From: Candidatus Bipolaricaulis sibiricus
GTDB lineage: Bacteria; Bipolaricaulota; Bipolaricaulia; Bipolaricaulales; Bipolaricaulaceae
NCBI GenBank assembly: GCA_004102645.1
Contig: CP034928.1
Location: 1,604,153-1,668,152 of the forward strand
Reading direction: 5' to 3'
DNA length: 64,000 bases
The notes under the pieces are model-generated. The model was not told the origin of the DNA and searched no databases. It saw only the letters and a program-made list of their open reading frames with translations. This document shows, one piece after another, positions 21,687 through 40,130 of this stretch (positions are counted from its first letter, which is position 1; the number at the start of each line of letters is the position of its first letter). The position numbers were made by a program, and so were the translations under genes.

Positions 21687-24600
21687 GTGAGGATGTGTCG
21701 CGCGCTGGTATTCCTATTCCTCGTTGCGGTGGGGTGCGTTGCGGTTGGGCAGACCGTGGGGCTCAACGGCCCCACGGGGATGGGGCGGTGTGAACAGGCG
21801 ATGTTCACCGTCGCGTTCACAGCGCACGCCAGCCAGACCGCCAGTGCGATCTGCTTCACCGTGACCCTGCCCAACGCGGGGTTCGTCTACGTCGCGGATT
21901 CGGGGCAGATCACGCTCCACGATGGGGAGGTCGTGGCCGCCGAGCCCACCCCCTCCGGGCTCAACCTGGTGTGGGACCTAGATCTTCTCTTGGGGTATCC
22001 GTACGCGCTCCCACCCGGGGAGACCGTCACCCTGGAGTTCGCGGTGGGGACAGGTTGCGGGACGATCTCCGGAACCCTGAGCGCGCGGGTCGACTACGAA
22101 CAACAGGGCATCCCCGGATACCTTACAGATTCTCAGCCGGTGGAGATCCTGCCTGGCGCCGTCCAGATCAGCAAAGAGCCTTCGGTGCAAGACGCCCGGG
22201 TGGGAGATACCGTGGCCTGGACGATCACCGTGGAGAACACGGGCCTGGGCCCGATCCACAACGTGGTGGTGACCGATACCCTGGGCGCGGGGCTGGCCTA
22301 CGTCTCGGCCACCCCTGATCCGGATGCTGTGGGCGGCCAGGTGATAACCTGGAGCCTGGGCTCGATCCCTGCCGGAGGTCAAGAACAAGTCCAGCTTTCG
22401 GCCGAGGTGGTCGCCTGCAAGGGGCTGGACAACGCTGCCGACGCGAGGTTCGGCTGCGACGATGGCTCCGTGTGCTACGACACCGCGGTGGACGGGGGGA
22501 CGGCCACGGCCTCCGTTCGCCTCATCCTCCAACAACCCCTCCTCGCCTGGCCCCCGCCAACGGTCGAGATCCCCTATTGCGCCCAAGAAGGTGTGGAGGT
22601 CGTGCTCCCGTTCACGAATGTGGGGGAAGGCCCCGCGTACAACGTGCGCTGGTGCGTTGACTGCGACCCGTTGGTCATCACCAATGTGGGCGCAGGGGCT
22701 TACTACGAGGAGGGATGCTTCATCCTCGAGGATCCAATCCCCCCCAACGAGACGTTTAATCTGACCTTCACCGTTTCGGTTCCGGATGGTTGGGACTGGT
22801 GTGCCGGAGTACCAAGCGGCCTTGTGATCTGCAAGATAGTATATGAGAACGTGTGCGGAGAGAAGTTCTACCCCCCGGTGCAGCTGGGGGGCTTCTCCAC
22901 GACCTACGGCCCGGAGGGTCCCCCCACCCTCAACGTGAGCCTCACTGGAGCGGAAGAGGTGTACATCTGCACTGAACAAGACTACACCCTCTCCGTCTCC
23001 TTCTCGGGCCTCGATGCCTGCGGGAACGGTGGGACGAGCGACATCTCCGTGGTGGTGGACGTCCCCGCCGGGTTCACCGTCTTAGACGCGGGTGGTGGTG
23101 ATTGGACTCCTGGCTCAGACGGCACGGGCGGAACGATCTCCTGGACGATCCCGCCCACGAGCCCCCTCTCCACCACGATCCGCCTCCGTGCCCCCGATTC
23201 TCAGCAGTGTCACCAAGTGGCCACGCTAAGCGCCACTGCTACCGCGTACGACTGCTGTGGCTGCGCGATCTCCGCGACAAGCTCGGTTCCCATTGCCATC
23301 GAGTGCTATCAGCTCGCAAGTGTTATACGAGAGGCAAGTCCCTCAGTTCAGGAAAAGTGCGCGGAGATTACGTACACGAACACCTATACCTTTGCCGACG
23401 ATGGCCCTGAAGTCTACTTTACCGATCTTGAGTTCATCGCCTACGCGGAAAACGCTCAGAAATACGTCGCCGGGAGCCTCACAATCACGATCGACGGAAA
23501 TCCGGCGAGTCCGATTACTGTCATTGACAACACCCCCGGCAGGTCTCTGGTCATTCAAGGGATTGACGATAGCGGTCTTGTGTGGGGGCACACCCTTGTG
23601 ATCTCCTACCAGCTCAGACTCACCCCGGACTCGGAGCCGCCTTCGTGCCCGAGCTCTTCCACTTTTTATACCTGGACCACACTAAATCTTGACGGCAAAT
23701 GCGCCATCGGGGACGAATGCACCGAGCCTTGCCAGGTGACAGAGATCCTTGCCGTTACCTCCGCGACCCCCACGATGAGTGTTTCTCTCACCGGCCTTCC
23801 CGATGACTTCGTGGACCCCTGCGGCACCTACGACATCACCCTCACCCTCACGAAGACCTCAACGTTTGACCCCCACGATGTGGTCCTCACGCTGGAGAAC
23901 TTGAACTACTACATCGTGGACCTGAATTCAATCCAGGTGAGCGGGGTGCAGCCCGCAAGCCCCATCCCCAAGGATTACGGAACCTACTACGAATGGGAGT
24001 ATGGGGAGGCCTTCGTGGGCCAGCCGAATGGAGCGCAGTCGGTGCTTCAGTTCCAGGTGCGCAAGCGCTGTGGGCCTGAGGTGGAGCTCCGCTCCGAAGC
24101 GCTCTACACGGATAGGTGCGGGGGCACGTGCTCCGTGAGCGACACCGAGGCCCCCGCTTACCTGCGCAGCCCCAACCTCTTCGTCTACAAAACCCCGGAG
24201 GTCGTTTATGCCACCCAAAACGAGATCACGTGGACGATCTACGTGGTGAACAGCGGGAACGGCTATGCCTACGAGGTGTGGGTGGATGATGTCTTAGGAA
24301 GTGGCCTGAAATACGAGTCCTCATCCGTTACGCCCTCTACCGGCGTCACCACGACCCCGCACTACGATCACCTCGGGAACTCGATCAACGGCGTCTCCTG
24401 GCACATCGATGCTATGACTCCAGGCGAGCAGCGGGTGATCACCCTCACCGCGCGGATGGTGGCCTGCAGTGATCTCTGGGACGAGGTGACGACGAGCCTG
24501 GGCTGTGGTGGGGAAGATTGCCTTCCACCGGTGAGCGATGACTCCACAGTGCTCATCCCCCCTACACAGCTCGTGGCCACTTCCTCCACGACGTCACCCA

Positions 24601-27600
24601 TCGCTACCTGCACTGAGCAAAAGGCTCTCATCCGCATCCGCAACGCCGGGGACCCGGCGGTGTACGAGCTCGTGGTCCGGGAGGCCCTGCCCCCGGGAAT
24701 CGAGTACGTCGCCGGGACGACCCGGTGGCGCAAGGGGAGCGGTTCTTGGCAGTCTGGCTCTGATCCCACGTTCAGTGGGGACATTTGGAGCGGTTACACC
24801 CTGGAGTGGACAGAGACCGAAGTCCCAGGGCTCGCTGAACTCCGTTCCCGCCAGACCCTGGAGATCGAGTTTGGGATCCGCGCCCTGTGCAATTTCACGG
24901 GCGGGAACCTCGGGGGACAGGTGGGCTACCTGAACGTGTGCGGAGAGCCGGGGAGCTTACCAGTGGGCACCTTCCGCCTCGATGCCCGTCAGCCGAGCCT
25001 CTCCGTGAACAAAGTCCAGACTTCCCCGATGGGTCCGGTGGATTGCGACTCTCTGATCACCTGGCGCATCGATGTCACGAACACCAGCGACATTCCCATC
25101 CCCTACGTCTGGGTGGAGGACGAGCTGGGAAGCGCCTTTGAGTACGTGTCCTCTACGGGCGGGATTGACGGAGGATATGGGAGTGGGTCCACTGCCACTT
25201 GGGTCATTGAAAACCTTGCCCCGGGAGCCACGGCCCAGCTCACCATTACCGCCAGGCACGTTTTCTGCGGCGACCTAACCAACACCGTTTCCGCCTGGTG
25301 GGGCTGCGGATCCGACTCAGATGGAAGCTCCGACACCATGGACGCCGACTGCCTCACCGATATACCCGCGACCAAGATGATCACCGCTTCGCGAAATCCC
25401 ACGGTCAGCCTGAGCATGAATCTGGACCCTGCCCTGATCCCCGCCTGCGAAAAGAGCACACTAACCCTCACCCTCCACAACCCCTCCACCGCCAGTGCCG
25501 CGGCGGTGGACGTGCGAATCAGTTTGCCTTCGGGGCTTTCTTATGTGCTCGGCACCACCAGGATCGACTGCGGAGGCGGATTTGTGCCTGCCGGCGATCC
25601 AGTGGAATCCGGCGGCTACCTCTATTGGTACGATCCGGTTGACCAAGGGAGCAACCTGTGCGATGCGATTCCACAGGGCGGATCGGTGAGCCTGCAGTTC
25701 GATGTCCAGGCCAACTGCTACATCACCGCGGGTTCGCTGGGGATCACCGTCTACTACTATGACTGCTGTTATTCGACCCAGTTCCAGCGGAGCTCCTCGC
25801 CCACAGTTCAGCCCGCCTTGCCCGTGCTCACCGTCACCAAAACCCCGGATTCTGTGGCGCTGGATTGCCACGACCCGAACAGCACGGTGACCTGGACCAT
25901 CACCGTGACGAACACCGGGGCTGCCCAAGCGGACTGGGTAAGAGTGGAGGACACCTTGGGGTCGAGCTTCGTTTACGTGGACTCGAACCCGGGAGCCACG
26001 CAAATAGACGGGTACACCTACGCCTGGGAATTCGGGCCTTTGGCGCCCGGGGAGTCGACGAACCTGTCGATCACGGCTCATCTCACCAGGCCTTCGGAGA
26101 CCTGCTCCGCTGGGCCGCGTACCAACACGGTGCGCGCGACCTGGGGTTGCGGCACCCCGGACGGGGATCCCACAACTCCGGAAGGATGTGCGTCGGGGAT
26201 CTGGGTCCAGGATACAGCCCTGGTGACCATCTCTGATCTCTACCTTGCGCCGAGCGACATCCAGCCGGTCCTGACCTGTGTGGCAGACGGCAATTACCAG
26301 GGCCGGATTCAAGTCCGCGTGCGCAACCAGGGCGATGCCCAGGTAACAGAGGATTTCCGGCTCACCTTAACCGAAGCGCAGACAGGGTGGTCCGTCACAG
26401 GATATTTCTACCAGGATTTTGGCGGGACTTTGCCCATTAATTCCGGATCTTCACGCACAATCTGGGTAGAGAACTGGCCTGTGAGCTGCGATACCTGCAC
26501 CTACCAGTTCGTGATCCAGCTCGACTCGGCTGATGAGATCTGCGAATGCCGTGAGGGGAACAATCAGAACAGCCGCACCTGGACGATCACCATCCCGGAT
26601 ATCACTGTTCGCAGGGAGACCTTGGCCCTCGTCTGTGCTGGGGATGGTCAAGTTCGCATCTCTGGGACGGTCACGTTGGGGAACGAGGGCTGTGGGAGCA
26701 ACCTGACCGCGGACGTCCCGATGCGGTTTGTCCTCCACGACGGGACGGGCTGCTCCGGGACGGTGCTCCACCAGTGGACGGAGACGTTCAGCAATGTAAA
26801 CATCCCTGCTGGAGGTGAGCAGACTTTCGATGTAAGTCACACCTTCTCGCTTGATCTCTGTGCTGAGGCCAGTGGCTGCACTGTATCCCTCTTTATAGAG
26901 GCCGACTACACGGACTCCATATGCGAATGCGACGGGACAAACAACACCTTCTGCACAGAGTTCAATATCGACATCCCCGACGTGGTGGTGACCCACGAGA
27001 ACCTGGCGCTCACCTGCGCCGGGGACGGGCAGGTCAGGATCTCGGGCACGGTGACCCTGGGCAACGAGGGCTGTGGAGACAACCTGACCGCGAACGTCCC
27101 CGTCCGGCTCACCCTCTACGATCAGGCAGGGTGCAATGGGACGGTGCTCCACCAGTGGACGGCGACGTTCAGCAGCGTAAACATCCCTGCTGGAGGCGAG
27201 CAGAGTTTCGATGTAACTCACACCTTCCCGCTTGATCTCTGTGCTGAGGCCAGTGGCTGCACTGTATCCCTCCTTATAGAGGCCGACTACACGGGCTCCA
27301 TATGCGAATGCGACGGGACGAACAACACCCTGTGCACCTCTTTCCCCGTGGAGATCCCTGATCTTGCGGTGGTGACCGTGGAACCGACCGTGCCCGACTC
27401 CTGCTCGCCAGGGCAGGTGGCGGTGACGGTGGCCAACGTGGGGTGCGTGGAGAGCCCTGCGGGCACAGTGGTGCGGATCACCGGCGACGCCACCGGAGAG
27501 ACTGATCTTCCCTCCATCCCTGCCGGGCAGGAGATCACCGTGACCGTTTACCTGAACGAGGTTCTCCCCTGTGGCACGCATCAAGTCACCGCCACAGTGG

Positions 27601-30600
27601 ATCCCGTCGGTACCGTCTGTGAGTGCTCGTCGGAAAACAACTCCCAGGAAGCCGAGTTCACCGTGGTCGACCCTGATCTCACCGTCAGCGAGCTCACGGT
27701 GGAGTGCCAAGGCGACGGAAGCTTTGCCGTGAGCGCAGCGGTCCAAAATGTTGGGACTGAAGCCGCGCCACCCACTACGGTGCGTATCTACGTAGAAGTT
27801 GCTCTGTTCAATACCGTGGACATTCCCCCGCTAGCGATCGGTGGGAGCTACACCGTGAACTACGTGACCCCGCGGATCAAATGCGGTGAAGCCCACTTAT
27901 TCCGCCTGGTTGTGGACGAAAACAATGTGATCTGCGAGTGCGACGAGGGTAATAACGAGGCCCAAGCTACGGCAAGCTGTGGCTGTCCCGCTTTGGTAAC
28001 GCAAAAAGAGATCGCCCAGATTACCCGTGGTGGAATACCTATCGATCCCAGCCTTCCCATTCAGGCAGGCGATGTGATCACCTACCGCCTCGCTGTGCAG
28101 AATGTGGGCGAGGGGAAGGCTTTCAACGTGGACATTTCCGACACCCTCCCCAGCGAATTCCTCTACATCTCGGGGACAACACAAGCCAGCTGGCCCTCCG
28201 GAACGTACAGTTCTAATCCAAGTGGTGCTCCGGGGCCAAGCCTCTTTTGGGACACCTCGGCGGAGTTGTGGCCAAGTGAGACCCTTGTCCTGGAATTCCA
28301 GGCGGTGGTCACAAACGCCGTGGTCCAGGGGGAAATTTACACAAACTGGATGTATACCACCGGGGAAGAAGGCGACGGGAGTTCCATTCCGCCCGATATG
28401 AGCGCCACCGTTCCCGCCGATGACGATCCCTATGACTGTAGCTCCGTCTCCCACGAAGCTGCGGCTATCCCCGCCTTGTCGGTCGATAAGGAAATCGCCG
28501 ATGTGATCAGAAATGGTGTCTCCATTTGGCCCACGAATACGGTGGAGCCGGGCGACCTTATCCACTGGCGGTTTACCATCAGGAACATAGGTATGGGGAC
28601 CGCTTACGATGTGAACTTCACTGACGAGCTCCCTGCGGGCCTCGTGTATGTGGAAGGGACGTACGAGGTGGACGATCCGCCGCAGGCTGGCTCCCTGGGA
28701 ATATCCGTTGGAAGTACCGGTCATTTGGTGGCCGATATCTCCGCGACGATCAATGGGGGCGGCACCTTAACGGCCGACTTCTTCACCTATGTGACCAGCG
28801 CCGTTCAGCAAGGTGTAGCTTTGGATAACTACGCCGGGACAACGGGAAAGGATGGGTACAACACTCCCATCCCTGCCGAAAACCCGCAAGCGGATGACAC
28901 TTCCGATGATGACCCTGACGATCTTGATCCGGATGACACGGGCTTTGCCACGATCGGGGTGGCCGAGCCGGCCCTGGCGTTGGAGAAGGAAATCATCGAT
29001 GTCCTGCGGGGCGGGGTGAGCATCTGGCCCACCCCAATCGTCCTCTGGGGCGATGTGATCGTGTATCAGGTCACGGTAAAGAACGTAGGTCTCGGTACAG
29101 CCTACGACGTGGATCTGACGGATGAACTACCTCTTGGCCTGGCTTACGACACCTCTTATGGAGACGGGACCTACACGGTGGACAATCCCGCTGCCTCCGG
29201 ATCTCTGGGGATCCCGGCCGGGGCCACAGGCAAGATCGTCGCTGACATCTCTGCCACTGTGGCTGGGGGTGGAACCCTAGTGGCGGTGTACCGGGCCCAA
29301 GTAACACCGGACGCGGTGCCAGGGGTTTATGTCACCAACCTGGCTCGCGTTACTGGTCGGGATGGTGCTAAGACGCCGATTCCCGATTTCAACCTCTATG
29401 TGAACGACACCTACCCCGATCAGGATTCAACCACGATCCGCGTCGGTGCTCCAGCACTGGTCACGAACAAGGCGTACTACTGCGAGCCGTGTGATCCATG
29501 CGCGCCGGAATCCGGGGACTGCGATCCATGCCTAGAGGAACCAATCGAGGTCAGCGTGGGCAGTACCGTGGGGTTCCAGCTCGTGGTTGCCAACGTCGGG
29601 TACAGCCCCGCCTACGACATCATGGTCGAAGATTTCCTCCCCGCAGGTTTGGTCTACGTTGAGAAGTCCGCCGTGGTCAGATGGTCCGGAGGCACAGTGC
29701 AGGTTGAACCAACTGGCTCACCAGGCCCTGTGCTCACGTGGGTGACGGGACAGACCCTGGGACCGGGGGAGCGCCTGGTCATCACCTTCGATGCCCTGGT
29801 GACGGTTGATGCCTCAGTGGGCACCGAGGTCCACAACCTGATGTTCGCAAGCGGTGTAGATACTTTCAGCACCCCCATCCCCGCAGACTCGAGCTCGTTT
29901 GTCCCGCAGGACGATGATCCCGATGACCGCTCGGCCCTGAAGCTCATCGTGCGTGCAGGGCCCATAGGTACAGCACCTCCCATCACGGGTACGGCATCGG
30001 CAGCGCGTGCAGCTGGTGGGTGGGCAGCGCTGGGGCTTGTGGCGCTCGGTGGGCTGCTGGCGCTGCGTTTTCGGAAGATAATCGTGGCACGTGTTTTGTG
30101 GCTTGGGGTTCTTGTCTTCCTCATCCTCGCGGGTTGGGGAGCCGATTCCCACGGGGCAACGCACACGATCGTCCTAACTAGCGATCCGCTCCGGGGAGGG
30201 ACTGTGTTCGGCGCCGGCCAGTATGAGACGGGCGAACGCGTCACGTTGACCGCGCTTCCCAGTCGCGGCTTTGTGTTCGTAGCCTGGTTTGAAGACGAAG
30301 AGAACGTCTCCTCCTCGCCAGTGCTGGAGTTCATCGCCGACCGCGATCGCACCCTGGTGGCGAGGTTCCAGCCCTCCCTTGAGTTCGTGGGGATCATAGG
30401 TCTGGGGCAGGGAAGGCTGGCCCTTCTGCCCACCGTGGCCTTGGACACCGGACGTGTCGAGATTCGGCCCCGCTTCCTGTTCCGAACAACCCCCTGGGAT
30501 CTCCGGTTCGTCGCAGCATTCGCGGGCGAGAACTGGACGGACGCCCAGGTTCACCTCACCGGGTCGTGGGAGAAGCTGAGGTTCGGAGGCGGGATGATGT

Positions 30601-31427
30601 TCAACCCAGCTGGTCCCGCGTACCGATCCGCGTACTTCATGATCTCGGGCCCGTGGGATGACCTGCGACTTGGGTTTCGAGTCACCCACTACCCAGCATC
30701 GGGCTCGCCCCCTGCCCCGTATTTTCTCCACACCCTGACCCTGAGCACGCGCGATCTGTCGGTCACCCTGCGCGGAGAGGAGCGCGCGGGGCTGATGTTC
30801 AAGGATGCTTCGGTCAGCGTGTTCGGCATGCCCATCTGTTGCGGAATCACAGCCCAAGGGACCTTCTCCTTCACCAAGGCGGGGTTCTCCCACGCTCAGG
30901 TAGCCCTGACCCAGCTACCCTTCTTCTGCTGCGGTTTGACCATCGACACCGCCGTCACGTTTACCGCGGACCGCAAGGCCATTGAGCTCTCTCCCCGGTG
31001 GAGTCCCCTCTGCGATGTGTGTCTTACGGTGTACGGCGACGTCCTGTGGGATCGGGACGCGTTTCATTGGAACGGGTTCGCCCTCTATGGGTACAAGATC
31101 CGGTGCTGTTTCGGGTCCTCGTGTTGTCCAGGAGGTGCCGGCGGGTACGTGGAGATCCTGACAGCGTTTGATCCGAGCCAGGTCTCTGGTGATTTCCAGG
31201 GCGACGAGTTCGAGTACCTAAAGGTCCACGCCTGTCGCCCCGCCTGTTGCGGCGGAACGTACGCGTTCGATGTGATCGCGTTCTTCTCCCCGACGGGTCT
31301 GTTCGGGCTCTCGCGGATCAAGACCGCCCTCTCAGCTCCTCTCTTCCCGTCGTTCGTCCTGACCGCGACACTGGAAGCACAGGCGGGGGGCGCTGCGCTG
31401 AGCGTCGGCTGGGAGGTCAGGTTCTAG
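21687..31427 (+). CDS. Giant secreted surface protein: DUF11/CARDB repeats, membrane segment, InlB-like repeat and barrel-like C-terminus
   Basis: A 3,246-residue protein. The GTG at 21687 lies six bases after GGGGAGG. Residues 1-22 are a signal peptide (CRALVFLFLVAVGCVAVG). From about residue 160 come many immunoglobulin-like repeats; at least eight are DUF11-like, with the pattern TWTITVENTG...VTDTLGAGLAYV. Residues about 1520-2080 are CARDB-like and include two nearly identical 127-residue units. Cysteines are frequent in the repeats, suggesting disulfides outside the cell. At about 2775-2800 a glycine/alanine-rich membrane segment ends in LRFRK, like a C-terminal sorting tail. A second hydrophobic stretch with a signal-peptide look follows (LWLGVLVFLILAGWG), then an InlB B-repeat-like domain (GGTVFGAGQYETGERVTLTA). 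About 350 beta-rich residues end in WEVRF, as outer-membrane barrels often do. Probable cell-surface or adhesion role. Confidence 0.8.
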   Translation: MRMCRALVFLFLVAVGCVAVGQTVGLNGPTGMGRCEQAMFTVAFTAHASQTASAICFTVTLPNAGFVYVADSGQITLHDGEVVAAEPTPSGLNLVWDLDLLLGYPYALPPGETVTLEFAVGTGCGTISGTLSARVDYEQQGIPGYLTDSQPVEILPGAVQISKEPSVQDARVGDTVAWTITVENTGLGPIHNVVVTDTLGAGLAYVSATPDPDAVGGQVITWSLGSIPAGGQEQVQLSAEVVACKGLDNAADARFGCDDGSVCYDTAVDGGTATASVRLILQQPLLAWPPPTVEIPYCAQEGVEVVLPFTNVGEGPAYNVRWCVDCDPLVITNVGAGAYYEEGCFILEDPIPPNETFNLTFTVSVPDGWDWCAGVPSGLVICKIVYENVCGEKFYPPVQLGGFSTTYGPEGPPTLNVSLTGAEEVYICTEQDYTLSVSFSGLDACGNGGTSDISVVVDVPAGFTVLDAGGGDWTPGSDGTGGTISWTIPPTSPLSTTIRLRAPDSQQCHQVATLSATATAYDCCGCAISATSSVPIAIECYQLASVIREASPSVQEKCAEITYTNTYTFADDGPEVYFTDLEFIAYAENAQKYVAGSLTITIDGNPASPITVIDNTPGRSLVIQGIDDSGLVWGHTLVISYQLRLTPDSEPPSCPSSSTFYTWTTLNLDGKCAIGDECTEPCQVTEILAVTSATPTMSVSLTGLPDDFVDPCGTYDITLTLTKTSTFDPHDVVLTLENLNYYIVDLNSIQVSGVQPASPIPKDYGTYYEWEYGEAFVGQPNGAQSVLQFQVRKRCGPEVELRSEALYTDRCGGTCSVSDTEAPAYLRSPNLFVYKTPEVVYATQNEITWTIYVVNSGNGYAYEVWVDDVLGSGLKYESSSVTPSTGVTTTPHYDHLGNSINGVSWHIDAMTPGEQRVITLTARMVACSDLWDEVTTSLGCGGEDCLPPVSDDSTVLIPPTQLVATSSTTSPIATCTEQKALIRIRNAGDPAVYELVVREALPPGIEYVAGTTRWRKGSGSWQSGSDPTFSGDIWSGYTLEWTETEVPGLAELRSRQTLEIEFGIRALCNFTGGNLGGQVGYLNVCGEPGSLPVGTFRLDARQPSLSVNKVQTSPMGPVDCDSLITWRIDVTNTSDIPIPYVWVEDELGSAFEYVSSTGGIDGGYGSGSTATWVIENLAPGATAQLTITARHVFCGDLTNTVSAWWGCGSDSDGSSDTMDADCLTDIPATKMITASRNPTVSLSMNLDPALIPACEKSTLTLTLHNPSTASAAAVDVRISLPSGLSYVLGTTRIDCGGGFVPAGDPVESGGYLYWYDPVDQGSNLCDAIPQGGSVSLQFDVQANCYITAGSLGITVYYYDCCYSTQFQRSSSPTVQPALPVLTVTKTPDSVALDCHDPNSTVTWTITVTNTGAAQADWVRVEDTLGSSFVYVDSNPGATQIDGYTYAWEFGPLAPGESTNLSITAHLTRPSETCSAGPRTNTVRATWGCGTPDGDPTTPEGCASGIWVQDTALVTISDLYLAPSDIQPVLTCVADGNYQGRIQVRVRNQGDAQVTEDFRLTLTEAQTGWSVTGYFYQDFGGTLPINSGSSRTIWVENWPVSCDTCTYQFVIQLDSADEICECREGNNQNSRTWTITIPDITVRRETLALVCAGDGQVRISGTVTLGNEGCGSNLTADVPMRFVLHDGTGCSGTVLHQWTETFSNVNIPAGGEQTFDVSHTFSLDLCAEASGCTVSLFIEADYTDSICECDGTNNTFCTEFNIDIPDVVVTHENLALTCAGDGQVRISGTVTLGNEGCGDNLTANVPVRLTLYDQAGCNGTVLHQWTATFSSVNIPAGGEQSFDVTHTFPLDLCAEASGCTVSLLIEADYTGSICECDGTNNTLCTSFPVEIPDLAVVTVEPTVPDSCSPGQVAVTVANVGCVESPAGTVVRITGDATGETDLPSIPAGQEITVTVYLNEVLPCGTHQVTATVDPVGTVCECSSENNSQEAEFTVVDPDLTVSELTVECQGDGSFAVSAAVQNVGTEAAPPTTVRIYVEVALFNTVDIPPLAIGGSYTVNYVTPRIKCGEAHLFRLVVDENNVICECDEGNNEAQATASCGCPALVTQKEIAQITRGGIPIDPSLPIQAGDVITYRLAVQNVGEGKAFNVDISDTLPSEFLYISGTTQASWPSGTYSSNPSGAPGPSLFWDTSAELWPSETLVLEFQAVVTNAVVQGEIYTNWMYTTGEEGDGSSIPPDMSATVPADDDPYDCSSVSHEAAAIPALSVDKEIADVIRNGVSIWPTNTVEPGDLIHWRFTIRNIGMGTAYDVNFTDELPAGLVYVEGTYEVDDPPQAGSLGISVGSTGHLVADISATINGGGTLTADFFTYVTSAVQQGVALDNYAGTTGKDGYNTPIPAENPQADDTSDDDPDDLDPDDTGFATIGVAEPALALEKEIIDVLRGGVSIWPTPIVLWGDVIVYQVTVKNVGLGTAYDVDLTDELPLGLAYDTSYGDGTYTVDNPAASGSLGIPAGATGKIVADISATVAGGGTLVAVYRAQVTPDAVPGVYVTNLARVTGRDGAKTPIPDFNLYVNDTYPDQDSTTIRVGAPALVTNKAYYCEPCDPCAPESGDCDPCLEEPIEVSVGSTVGFQLVVANVGYSPAYDIMVEDFLPAGLVYVEKSAVVRWSGGTVQVEPTGSPGPVLTWVTGQTLGPGERLVITFDALVTVDASVGTEVHNLMFASGVDTFSTPIPADSSSFVPQDDDPDDRSALKLIVRAGPIGTAPPITGTASAARAAGGWAALGLVALGGLLALRFRKIIVARVLWLGVLVFLILAGWGADSHGATHTIVLTSDPLRGGTVFGAGQYETGERVTLTALPSRGFVFVAWFEDEENVSSSPVLEFIADRDRTLVARFQPSLEFVGIIGLGQGRLALLPTVALDTGRVEIRPRFLFRTTPWDLRFVAAFAGENWTDAQVHLTGSWEKLRFGGGMMFNPAGPAYRSAYFMISGPWDDLRLGFRVTHYPASGSPPAPYFLHTLTLSTRDLSVTLRGEERAGLMFKDASVSVFGMPICCGITAQGTFSFTKAGFSHAQVALTQLPFFCCGLTIDTAVTFTADRKAIELSPRWSPLCDVCLTVYGDVLWDRDAFHWNGFALYGYKIRCCFGSSCCPGGAGGYVEILTAFDPSQVSGDFQGDEFEYLKVHACRPACCGGTYAFDVIAFFSPTGLFGLSRIKTALSAPLFPSFVLTATLEAQAGGAALSVGWEVRF
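26592..27353 (+). repeat. Two tandem 381-bp near-identical coding repeats (CARDB-like)
   Basis: Units 26592-26972 and 26973-27353 each encode 127 residues beginning IPD and sharing AGDGQVRISGTVTLGNEGCG, NIPAGGEQ and CTVSL.IEADYT. By eye about 100 of 127 residues match. The in-frame exact length points to recent tandem duplication or gene conversion. Confidence 0.9.
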
Positions 31428-32632
31428 GGCCCCGCCAGGAAGAACCTGTGGAATAGGGATAGCACGGCTCGATGGTGGCCGGGGACGAGGACGTGGTGGT
31501 TCCCAAGCGGCTCCTGGAGAAGGCGCGCCAGGGCCCCCTTCGCCATCTTGAACACGACTTGGGTCCGGCAGAGGTCCTCTCGGCCTAAGTGTTCGGGCAG
31601 GACCGACCCCTCGGCGAAGAACCCTCCCTCCAGCCCCTTCCCCCCGAACCGGACGAGGGTGTAGGGGCCCGGGCGGACCCGCCCCGCCACGGCGAGGCCG
31701 ATCCCCGACTCGAAGTGGGTCCGCAAGCGGTAGGAGGCGACGATGGCAAGGGGCACCGTGCAATGGGCGAGGACGAGCCGCCCTCGCTTGAGGTCGAGGT
31801 CAGCGGGGTTGGCGAGGAACCCCGGGCCGCCGGTGAGTTCCTGCGCCACCATCAGGGCGAGGAGCGCCGGGATGTCCCCCTCGCAGCCACCTGGAATGCC
31901 GGCATCGGACAGGCATGACAGCGCCCAGCACGCGGTCATCCGGTGGGGGAGGAGCCCGAAGCACGCGATGGTCAGGGCATCCAACCGCTCGTCGTGCACC
32001 AACCGCGCCAGCGCAGCATGGACACCGCTCGCCATCGTCCGTTCTCCATCCCCGATCCCTTCCCCCTCCCCCGGGACGGGGGCCTGCGCCTCCGTCGGCC
32101 GCCGGACGAGGACAGCATCCAGAGGAAATTGGCGGACGACCAACCCCAACTTCTCCGCAAGGACGTCCATGCCCAGCGAGCTGGCCACAAGCCAGGGCGA
32201 GGGTTCCCCCACCAACCCCACCCGCTTCCCTCTCAAGCCCCGGGCAAGGGCCACCGCTCGCCCCAGTACGGGGAGGGACACCGTCTGGGACACCGTCTCC
32301 GTCCCGAGGTGGACAACCCACACCGAGCGACGATCCTGGTGTAGCTGGGCCGCGACCTCGAGCGCCGCGGGGAGGGAGTTATGCCCGGGATGGGAGAGAA
32401 GGACGATCGGCCCCGTCACCCGCTCCGCGAACGCCACGGCCTCCCCTTCGGTGCCACCGGTGAGGACAAGGAGAAGGTGGGCCGGCTCGGTCACGATCGT
32501 GTCCGCATCCGTCACAACCAGCTCCACGCCCTCCCGTTCCCGAAATGCTGCCACAACCCGGCACGCCAGGTCGGCCACCGCGCCGTGGAGGCCCGACGCA
32601 AGGGGGAGCACCGGCAAGCGAACCTCAGCCAT
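31424..32632 (-). CDS. L-fucose/L-arabinose isomerase-fold protein (FucI-like)
   Basis: A 402-residue protein resembling the sugar-isomerase superfamily of FucI and AraA. The typical central region is present: a Rossmann-like first half (GKRVGLVGEPSPWLVAS), then GIPGGCEGDIPALLALM and ADLDLKRGRLVLAHC. The ATG at 32632 is used; the open frame continues upstream over rbfA without support. Family members isomerise deoxysugars, but many homologues of this length have no proven substrate. The start overlaps rbfA by 8 nt, so it is cotranscribed with the translation genes, which is odd for a sugar enzyme. The end overlaps the end of the giant surface-protein gene by four bases on the other strand. 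Confidence 0.65.
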   Translation of the reverse strand: MAEVRLPVLPLASGLHGAVADLACRVVAAFREREGVELVVTDADTIVTEPAHLLLVLTGGTEGEAVAFAERVTGPIVLLSHPGHNSLPAALEVAAQLHQDRRSVWVVHLGTETVSQTVSLPVLGRAVALARGLRGKRVGLVGEPSPWLVASSLGMDVLAEKLGLVVRQFPLDAVLVRRPTEAQAPVPGEGEGIGDGERTMASGVHAALARLVHDERLDALTIACFGLLPHRMTACWALSCLSDAGIPGGCEGDIPALLALMVAQELTGGPGFLANPADLDLKRGRLVLAHCTVPLAIVASYRLRTHFESGIGLAVAGRVRPGPYTLVRFGGKGLEGGFFAEGSVLPEHLGREDLCRTQVVFKMAKGALARLLQEPLGNHHVLVPGHHRAVLSLFHRFFLAGP

Positions 32633-32960
32633 CTCCCTCTCGCGGCGGAACAGGGAAACCGAGGGGACTCGCAACGACGAACGTGAGCCTGGGCACCCGG
32701 CGCACGGACAGCCGGCGGGCGAGCTGCGCGCGGATGAACCCCCGGTCATGGACCAGAGCAGCGCGGGCCTTTTCCTGATCCGTGGGCACCCCCTGGAGGG
32801 CCACCGCCACCACCGCTTCCTCCCGATCCGGGGACAACCTCACCCCCATCACGGTGGGCAAGGCCACCCGGAGGGCAGGATCTTTGACCTCGAACTCGAG
32901 GATTCGCGCTACCTCACGGGCGATCGTAGAGACGAGCCGGGAGCGGCGATGCGCCGACAT
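32625..32960 (-). CDS. rbfA: 30S ribosome-binding factor A
   Basis: A 111-residue KH-type cold-shock and 30S maturation factor that binds 16S rRNA helix 1 in late assembly. Typical features are the N-terminal helix AREVARILEFEVKDPAL, the following VMGVRLSPDREEAVVAV strand and the C-terminal VRRVPRLTFVV. The ATG at 32960 overlaps the stop of the DUF503 gene (TGATG). A GTG three bases earlier is possible. The order infB-ylxP-rbfA is standard in bacteria and confirms the call. Confidence 0.93.
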   Translation of the reverse strand: MSAHRRSRLVSTIAREVARILEFEVKDPALRVALPTVMGVRLSPDREEAVVAVALQGVPTDQEKARAALVHDRGFIRAQLARRLSVRRVPRLTFVVASPLGFPVPPREGDG

Positions 32961-39537: not shown

Positions 39538-39614
39538 TGGTGGGTGGTGCAGGAGTTGAACCTGCGACCCCGCGCACGTCAAGCGCGTGCTCTACCAAGC
39601 TGAGCTAACCACCC
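39538..39614 (-). tRNA. tRNA-Val (anticodon GAC)
   Basis: A 77-nt cloverleaf with encoded CCA. Acceptor stem GGGTGGT / ACCACCC, D-stem GCTC / GAGC, anticodon stem CGCGC / GCGCG with loop TTGACGT (anticodon GAC), and T-stem GCAGG / CCTGC with TTCAACT. Confidence 0.97.
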
Positions 39615-39693
39615 GCAACATCGATTGACCGGTTCTCGGTGCAATGGTCCGACCGCTCTAACCTGCAACCGACCAACTCTGCGACCAGCTTCC

Positions 39694-39769
39694 TGGAGGC
39701 GGCGCCCGGATTTGAACCGGGGAATAAGGGATTTGCAGTCCCTCGCCTTTGCCGCTTGGCTACGCCGCC
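39694..39769 (-). tRNA. tRNA-Cys (anticodon GCA)
   Basis: A 76-nt cloverleaf with encoded CCA. Acceptor stem GGCGGCG / CGCCGCC, anticodon stem AGGGA / TCCCT with loop CTGCAAA (anticodon GCA), T-stem CCCGG / CCGGG with TTCAAAT. It lies four bases after the end of tmRNA and 79 bases before tRNA-Val. Confidence 0.97.
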
Positions 39770-39773
39770 CCTC

Positions 39774-40130
39774 TGGTGGAGGTGGGGGGAGTCGAACCCC
39801 CGTCCGAAAACCCCTCGGCTTCGGCTTCTACAAGCTTAGCCCGCGTTCTTGTTCTCGGGCGTCACGCTCCCACGGGCGGGATCGCTCGGCCCCCAGCCTC
39901 GTTGAGTTTCGTCCAGCCGGCCCAAGGCCAGCCACCTGGACTAGCCCGTCTTGTCGACGCCCGGCGGCACCCCACGGGCGGGGGAACCCCAGACGGCCTA
40001 CGCCTAGTTCAGGGCGTAAGCAGGAACAGTTGCGTAGTCGGCATTTGTTTGCCGTTCCGCCGGATTTAGGAGGAGACGGCCCTCCGCTTGCTGCCTGGCC
40101 TCGGTGTTCCCGTCGAGACCGGTCACCCCC
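39774..40130 (-). ncRNA. ssrA: tmRNA (one-piece)
   Basis: Rescues stalled ribosomes by adding a degradation tag. The 5' end GGGGGTGACCGG and the 3' end with T-arm GGTTCGACTCC and acceptor CACCTCC-ACCA form the tRNA-like domain; CCA is encoded. The tag frame ends in the loop of helix 5 (stem TACGCC / GGCGTA, 40018-39999 region). It reads ...NADYATVPAYALN followed by TAG (40045-40004). A canonical-looking GCA-AAC resume point (40052-40047) is one base out of this frame, so the start of the tag is uncertain. The C-terminus ALN differs from the usual LAA. Total length is 357 nt. Confidence 0.93.

Follow-up and report, generated by a model that had tools for sequence, protein, structure and literature searches.

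The locus studied here raises the question of whether one giant reading frame encodes a true fusion of two exported proteins, or whether two genes have been merged by a lost stop codon. The frame lies in the window (the whole 64,000-nucleotide stretch of the genome of Candidatus Bipolaricaulis sibiricus that was analysed), and the giant gene is present as a single copy in the 1.70 Mb genome, whose assembly consists of one contig and is 99.8% complete. Its parts, all on the plus strand, are as follows:

21687..31427, plus strand: the whole fused reading frame, with a GTG start and 3,246 aa, free of internal stops
21687..21752, plus strand: N-terminal signal peptide, residues 1-22 (MRMCRALVFLFLVAVGCVAVGQ), from hydropathy and sequence
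21753..30008, plus strand: DUF11/CARDB beta-sandwich array (Pfam: DUF11 eight times, CARDB four times)
30009..30065, plus strand: TM1, a stop-transfer-like segment, residues 2775-2793, from hydropathy and a low-confidence model helix
30066..30092, plus strand: short basic loop RFRKIIVAR, predicted from the sequence to be cytoplasmic; basic in 7/7 fused proteins of the alignment
30084..30155, plus strand: TM2, an internal signal-peptide-like segment, residues 2800-2823, from hydropathy and a position matching that of split-gene signal peptides
30174..30374, plus strand: divergent InlB B-repeat (PF18998, Flg_new_2), residues 2830-2896, from Pfam and a structure model
30375..31424, plus strand: cysteine-rich 22-stranded beta-barrel of an unnamed family, predicted by AlphaFold2 and PDB fold matches
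31395..31424, plus strand: C-terminal beta-signal-like ALSVGWEVRF; GWxxRF is mostly conserved among relatives

The upstream part proved to be a multi-domain array in Pfam, with DUF11 matching over eight stretches (E 2e-89) and CARDB over four (E 3.9e-43). Strong hydropathy peaks occurred at three places only, namely residues 1-28 (the signal peptide), 2775-2801 (TM1 and the edge of the loop) and 2795-2821 (TM2), with the basic RFRK sitting between TM1 and TM2. Hydropathy and sequence thus agree with the first-pass annotation, which had placed a membrane segment plus LRFRK near residue 2,800 and a second signal-like segment behind it; the InlB B-repeat-like domain it had proposed next corresponds to the Pfam match at residues 2830-2896. 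Codon-position GC was coding-like throughout the junction. When the array tails of the window, G010 and G001 were searched for a sortase- or exosortase-type sorting tail that could account for TM1, no match above cut-off was obtained. Downstream, a convergent gene without a Pfam match (31424-32749, minus strand) overlaps the stop of the giant gene with its own stop by 4 bases, and tRNA-Val, tRNA-Cys and tmRNA genes are clustered at 39538-40130.

The state of the junction was examined in relatives by searching 100 related genomes and reading the matching loci; an initial contig scan of related genomes with the window protein alone as query had given no match. An in-frame fusion with the same domain order was found in seven species, comprising the window and G003, G006, G011, G020, G032 and G036, and the barrels of these six other species are 42-53% identical to that of the window. 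The annotated joining of a giant DUF11/CARDB protein to a barrel-like protein is therefore borne out by an open frame and by an order that recurs in six species. Seven further species (G001, G002, G009, G010, G007, G026 and G085) carry two genes instead, which agrees with the earlier view of two exported proteins in one frame. Among these, four congeners have barrels 65-71% identical to the window's, and three further species are also split. The split junctions mostly overlap (ATGA, TAATG or TGATG) or leave a 1-base gap. In G001, G002 and G010 the stop and start overlap and the array retains TM1; G009 resembles these three, but its pair is spread over two contigs, and in G007, G026 and G085 the array/barrel pair lacks TM1. 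TM1 is thus present in 7/7 fused versus 4/7 split proteins. A stop codon with a separate start in relatives had been proposed as a sign against the fusion; such an arrangement does exist in some of them, but others are fused, so that the fusion stands.

The convergent gene and IF-2 follow the barrel in the window, G010, G001 and G036, and the convergent gene also does so in G007, indicating that these are the same locus. The linkage of array and barrel extends over two taxonomic families. In G015 the barrel gene is present with no array gene directly upstream. Within the genus, searches of G004, G005 and G008 gave no full-length relative of the barrel, and the array tail had no match in the latter two, so that the unit appears to be dispensable.

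Several loci showed further particularities. The fused gene of G032 carries an in-frame TAG within its barrel part (L039:15304-15306), which might mean that the gene is broken or that the MAG contains an error, and the DUF11 part of G006 has a frame break upstream of the junction (L037, about position 705). At L063:1-3080, an open frame resembling a PKD array precedes a related InlB-barrel gene by about 250 bases, as if another array type replaced the DUF11 protein. In G043, from another family, the gene of a DUF11 giant with a hydrophobic end overlaps a second gene (L121:3210-14841), which encodes a signal-like segment, a single DUF11-like part and a tail that looks beta-rich and ends in GF, a layout like that of the window. 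We rejected this pair as a homologous case, since comparison of its second gene with the barrel gave an hhalign probability of 0.5%, which does not show homology.

Mapping the fused and split states onto the barrel, array-tail and concatenated trees required at least three changes on each. Given the two-gene state in the four congeners and in three further species, the ancestral unit was probably a two-gene pair. The split outgroups and the tree fit either one fusion followed by two splits or more than one fusion, and the tree does not choose between them. On the concatenated tree the window is the sister of the split clade that has TM1 (97/96), and the nesting of this clade among fused members mildly favours a re-split. 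Within the predicted hairpin of TM1 and TM2, comparison of G011 with G003 gave a dN of 0.38 versus a dS of 0.73, and that of G036 with G032 a pN of 0.32 versus a pS of 0.75; pairs with G006 were left out of dN/dS because a stop upstream in this sequence put the codon alignment out of register. Amino-acid-changing differences at the junction are thus fewer than silent ones, with a constraint weaker than in the flanks. Judged from these substitution patterns, the junction is evolving as translated sequence, under selection against amino-acid change.

The C-terminal part was modelled with AlphaFold2 from 13 sequences, yielding the InlB domain at model residues 1-68 followed by 22 strands (pLDDT 86.8, pTM 0.67). 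Foldseek against the PDB matched BtuB, FauA, FimD, OprD and CdiB (E about 1e-5 to 1e-4), and all 50 matches listed were outer-membrane barrels. Their TM-scores were low (0.12-0.47), so that the matches support the barrel class but not a specific family, and no sequence relatives of the barrel were found in PDB, Pfam or NCBIfam. The fused protein ends in LSVGWEVRF, providing an aromatic C-terminal end (WEVRF) as expected of a beta-signal, and the genome encodes both Omp85 (PF01103 above cut-off) and signal peptidase I. Together, these models support the prediction that the C-terminal region is an outer-membrane beta-barrel protein. The cysteine-rich barrel family recurs at other sites of the window genome (G000:C1:263010-263744, 1552848-1553864, 456802-457485 and 1003-1560; L123-L126), with LCCG, CCG and GPGCCGG-like motifs. 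The family is widespread in the window's taxonomic family.

The giant gene is a genuine fusion of two genes, one for a DUF11/CARDB array and one for an InlB-barrel, which were probably separate, adjacent and mostly overlapping in the ancestor, and we consider it probable that its product is cut after export. Specifically, Sec would export the N-terminal array until TM1 halts transfer, the short basic loop would remain cytoplasmic, and TM2, serving as an internal signal peptide, would resume transfer. A cut behind TM2 by signal peptidase I or another protease would then free the InlB-barrel protein for the Omp85 machinery, while the array would stay in the inner membrane, held there via its C-terminal hairpin. 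Such a fusion would fix a 1:1 ratio and the co-delivery of two envelope partners. The weak cleavage motif of the window, the low TM-scores of the barrel and the low-confidence model of the hairpin count against this explanation.

TM2 is the positional homologue of the signal peptides found at the N-termini of the split-gene products. The presence of TM1 in every fused protein is in turn what the topology requires: after an exported array it would return the chain so that TM2 starts in the cytoplasm. Split proteins do not need it, and three of them lack it. A low-confidence model of the junction placed helices at 200-224 and 229-247, the InlB domain from 255 and the barrel from 328. The spacer between TM2 and the barrel consists of the 68-residue InlB domain and about 8 further residues. 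The periplasm is usually about 20 nm or more wide. With the barrel in the outer membrane and the hairpin in the inner one, such a spacer would be too short to cross it, making cleavage after TM2 the most likely fate. In a small set of related sequences judged by a simple rule, 6/6 split signal peptides examined carried a strong A-X-A cleavage motif, versus 4/7 fused proteins. A strong signal peptidase site is missing behind TM2 in the window, G006 and G032, and the window offers weak sites such as SHG|AT.

Those missing sites, together with the retention of fusion and hairpin over long divergence, would suit an uncut chain in which array, inner-membrane hairpin and outer-membrane barrel covalently bridge both membranes. 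We regard this reading as unlikely, though the best placed of the alternatives, given that the spacer would be too short for a usual periplasm and that the split relatives manage without a covalent link. The earlier proposal of a surface array and an outer-membrane domain in one chain accordingly keeps its outer-membrane domain, as predicted from structure, but the two staying joined after export is less likely than their cleavage.

It is improbable that an internal translation start at GTG 30084 yields the barrel, whether as an additional or as the sole route. This codon is suitably placed, is the only plausible internal start here and has a weak GGAAG 6 bases upstream, and the starts of split relatives fall in the same area. 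However, neither the loop nor TM2 contains a start codon in G003 and G011, and a good ribosome site at loop or TM2 starts was seen in none of the fused members, as opposed to a clear one at 4/6 split starts checked.

We give equally little credence to an autotransporter-like route, in which the C-terminal barrel would deliver the N-terminal array to the cell surface. The order of passenger and then C-terminal barrel, the linkage of the partners across two families and the 22 strands of the barrel model would accord with it, but Pfam revealed no autotransporter translocator domain at E<=0.1, the TM1-TM2 hairpin separates passenger from barrel, and the barrel model has no linker helix.

Finally, an assembly error or the recent stop loss or indel envisaged by the first-pass annotation is very improbable: the relatives with the most similar barrels do have two genes, but six other species, at 42-53% identity, show the same in-frame fusion in their assemblies, which argues against an assembly slip, the window genome is a nearly complete single contig, the junction is under apparent selection and no internal start is conserved.

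When two proteins are fused in some species and encoded by adjacent or overlapping genes in others, this is classic evidence of a joint function; here it concerns two unnamed envelope proteins. The envelope type of the phylum has been described as hard to decide (PMC6092417), and the fused barrel supports an outer membrane in Bipolaricaulota. Our data also point to a large cysteine-rich barrel family for which Pfam and NCBIfam have no model, and they provide a naturally occurring case in which to test whether the end of an inner-membrane polyprotein can give rise to an outer-membrane barrel in bacteria.

Among known systems, the SlpA/OmpM outer-membrane connectors of Deinococcus and Veillonella reach peptidoglycan with SLH domains and a coiled coil (PMC9388160, PMC10628300). 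Like these, the window protein joins a non-membrane part at the N-terminus to a predicted outer-membrane barrel at the C-terminus, within one chain of a deep-branching diderm; unlike them, it has a DUF11/CARDB array and an inner-membrane hairpin, and Pfam found no SLH domain in it. The sole SLH match in the genome is a small protein with a C-terminal hydrophobic segment (L134:1917-2420). Type V secretion comprises autotransporters and two-partner secretion (PMC3297439). The likeness here lies in an array resembling a passenger that goes with an outer-membrane barrel, either C-terminal or as a partner, in one gene or two; the window protein differs in having no known translocator family, no POTRA domain found, and an internal signal-like segment and hairpin before the barrel. 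In the FbcH cytochrome b/c1 polyprotein of Bradyrhizobium, two exported proteins are encoded in one frame and an internal signal peptide is cut. With its second protein behind an internal signal peptide, FbcH is the nearest known mechanistic precedent for the putative cleavage here, although it consists of inner-membrane respiratory proteins and has neither an outer-membrane barrel nor a giant array. Without claiming membership in any of these families, we propose that the giant protein most likely works like a polyprotein with an internal signal peptide.
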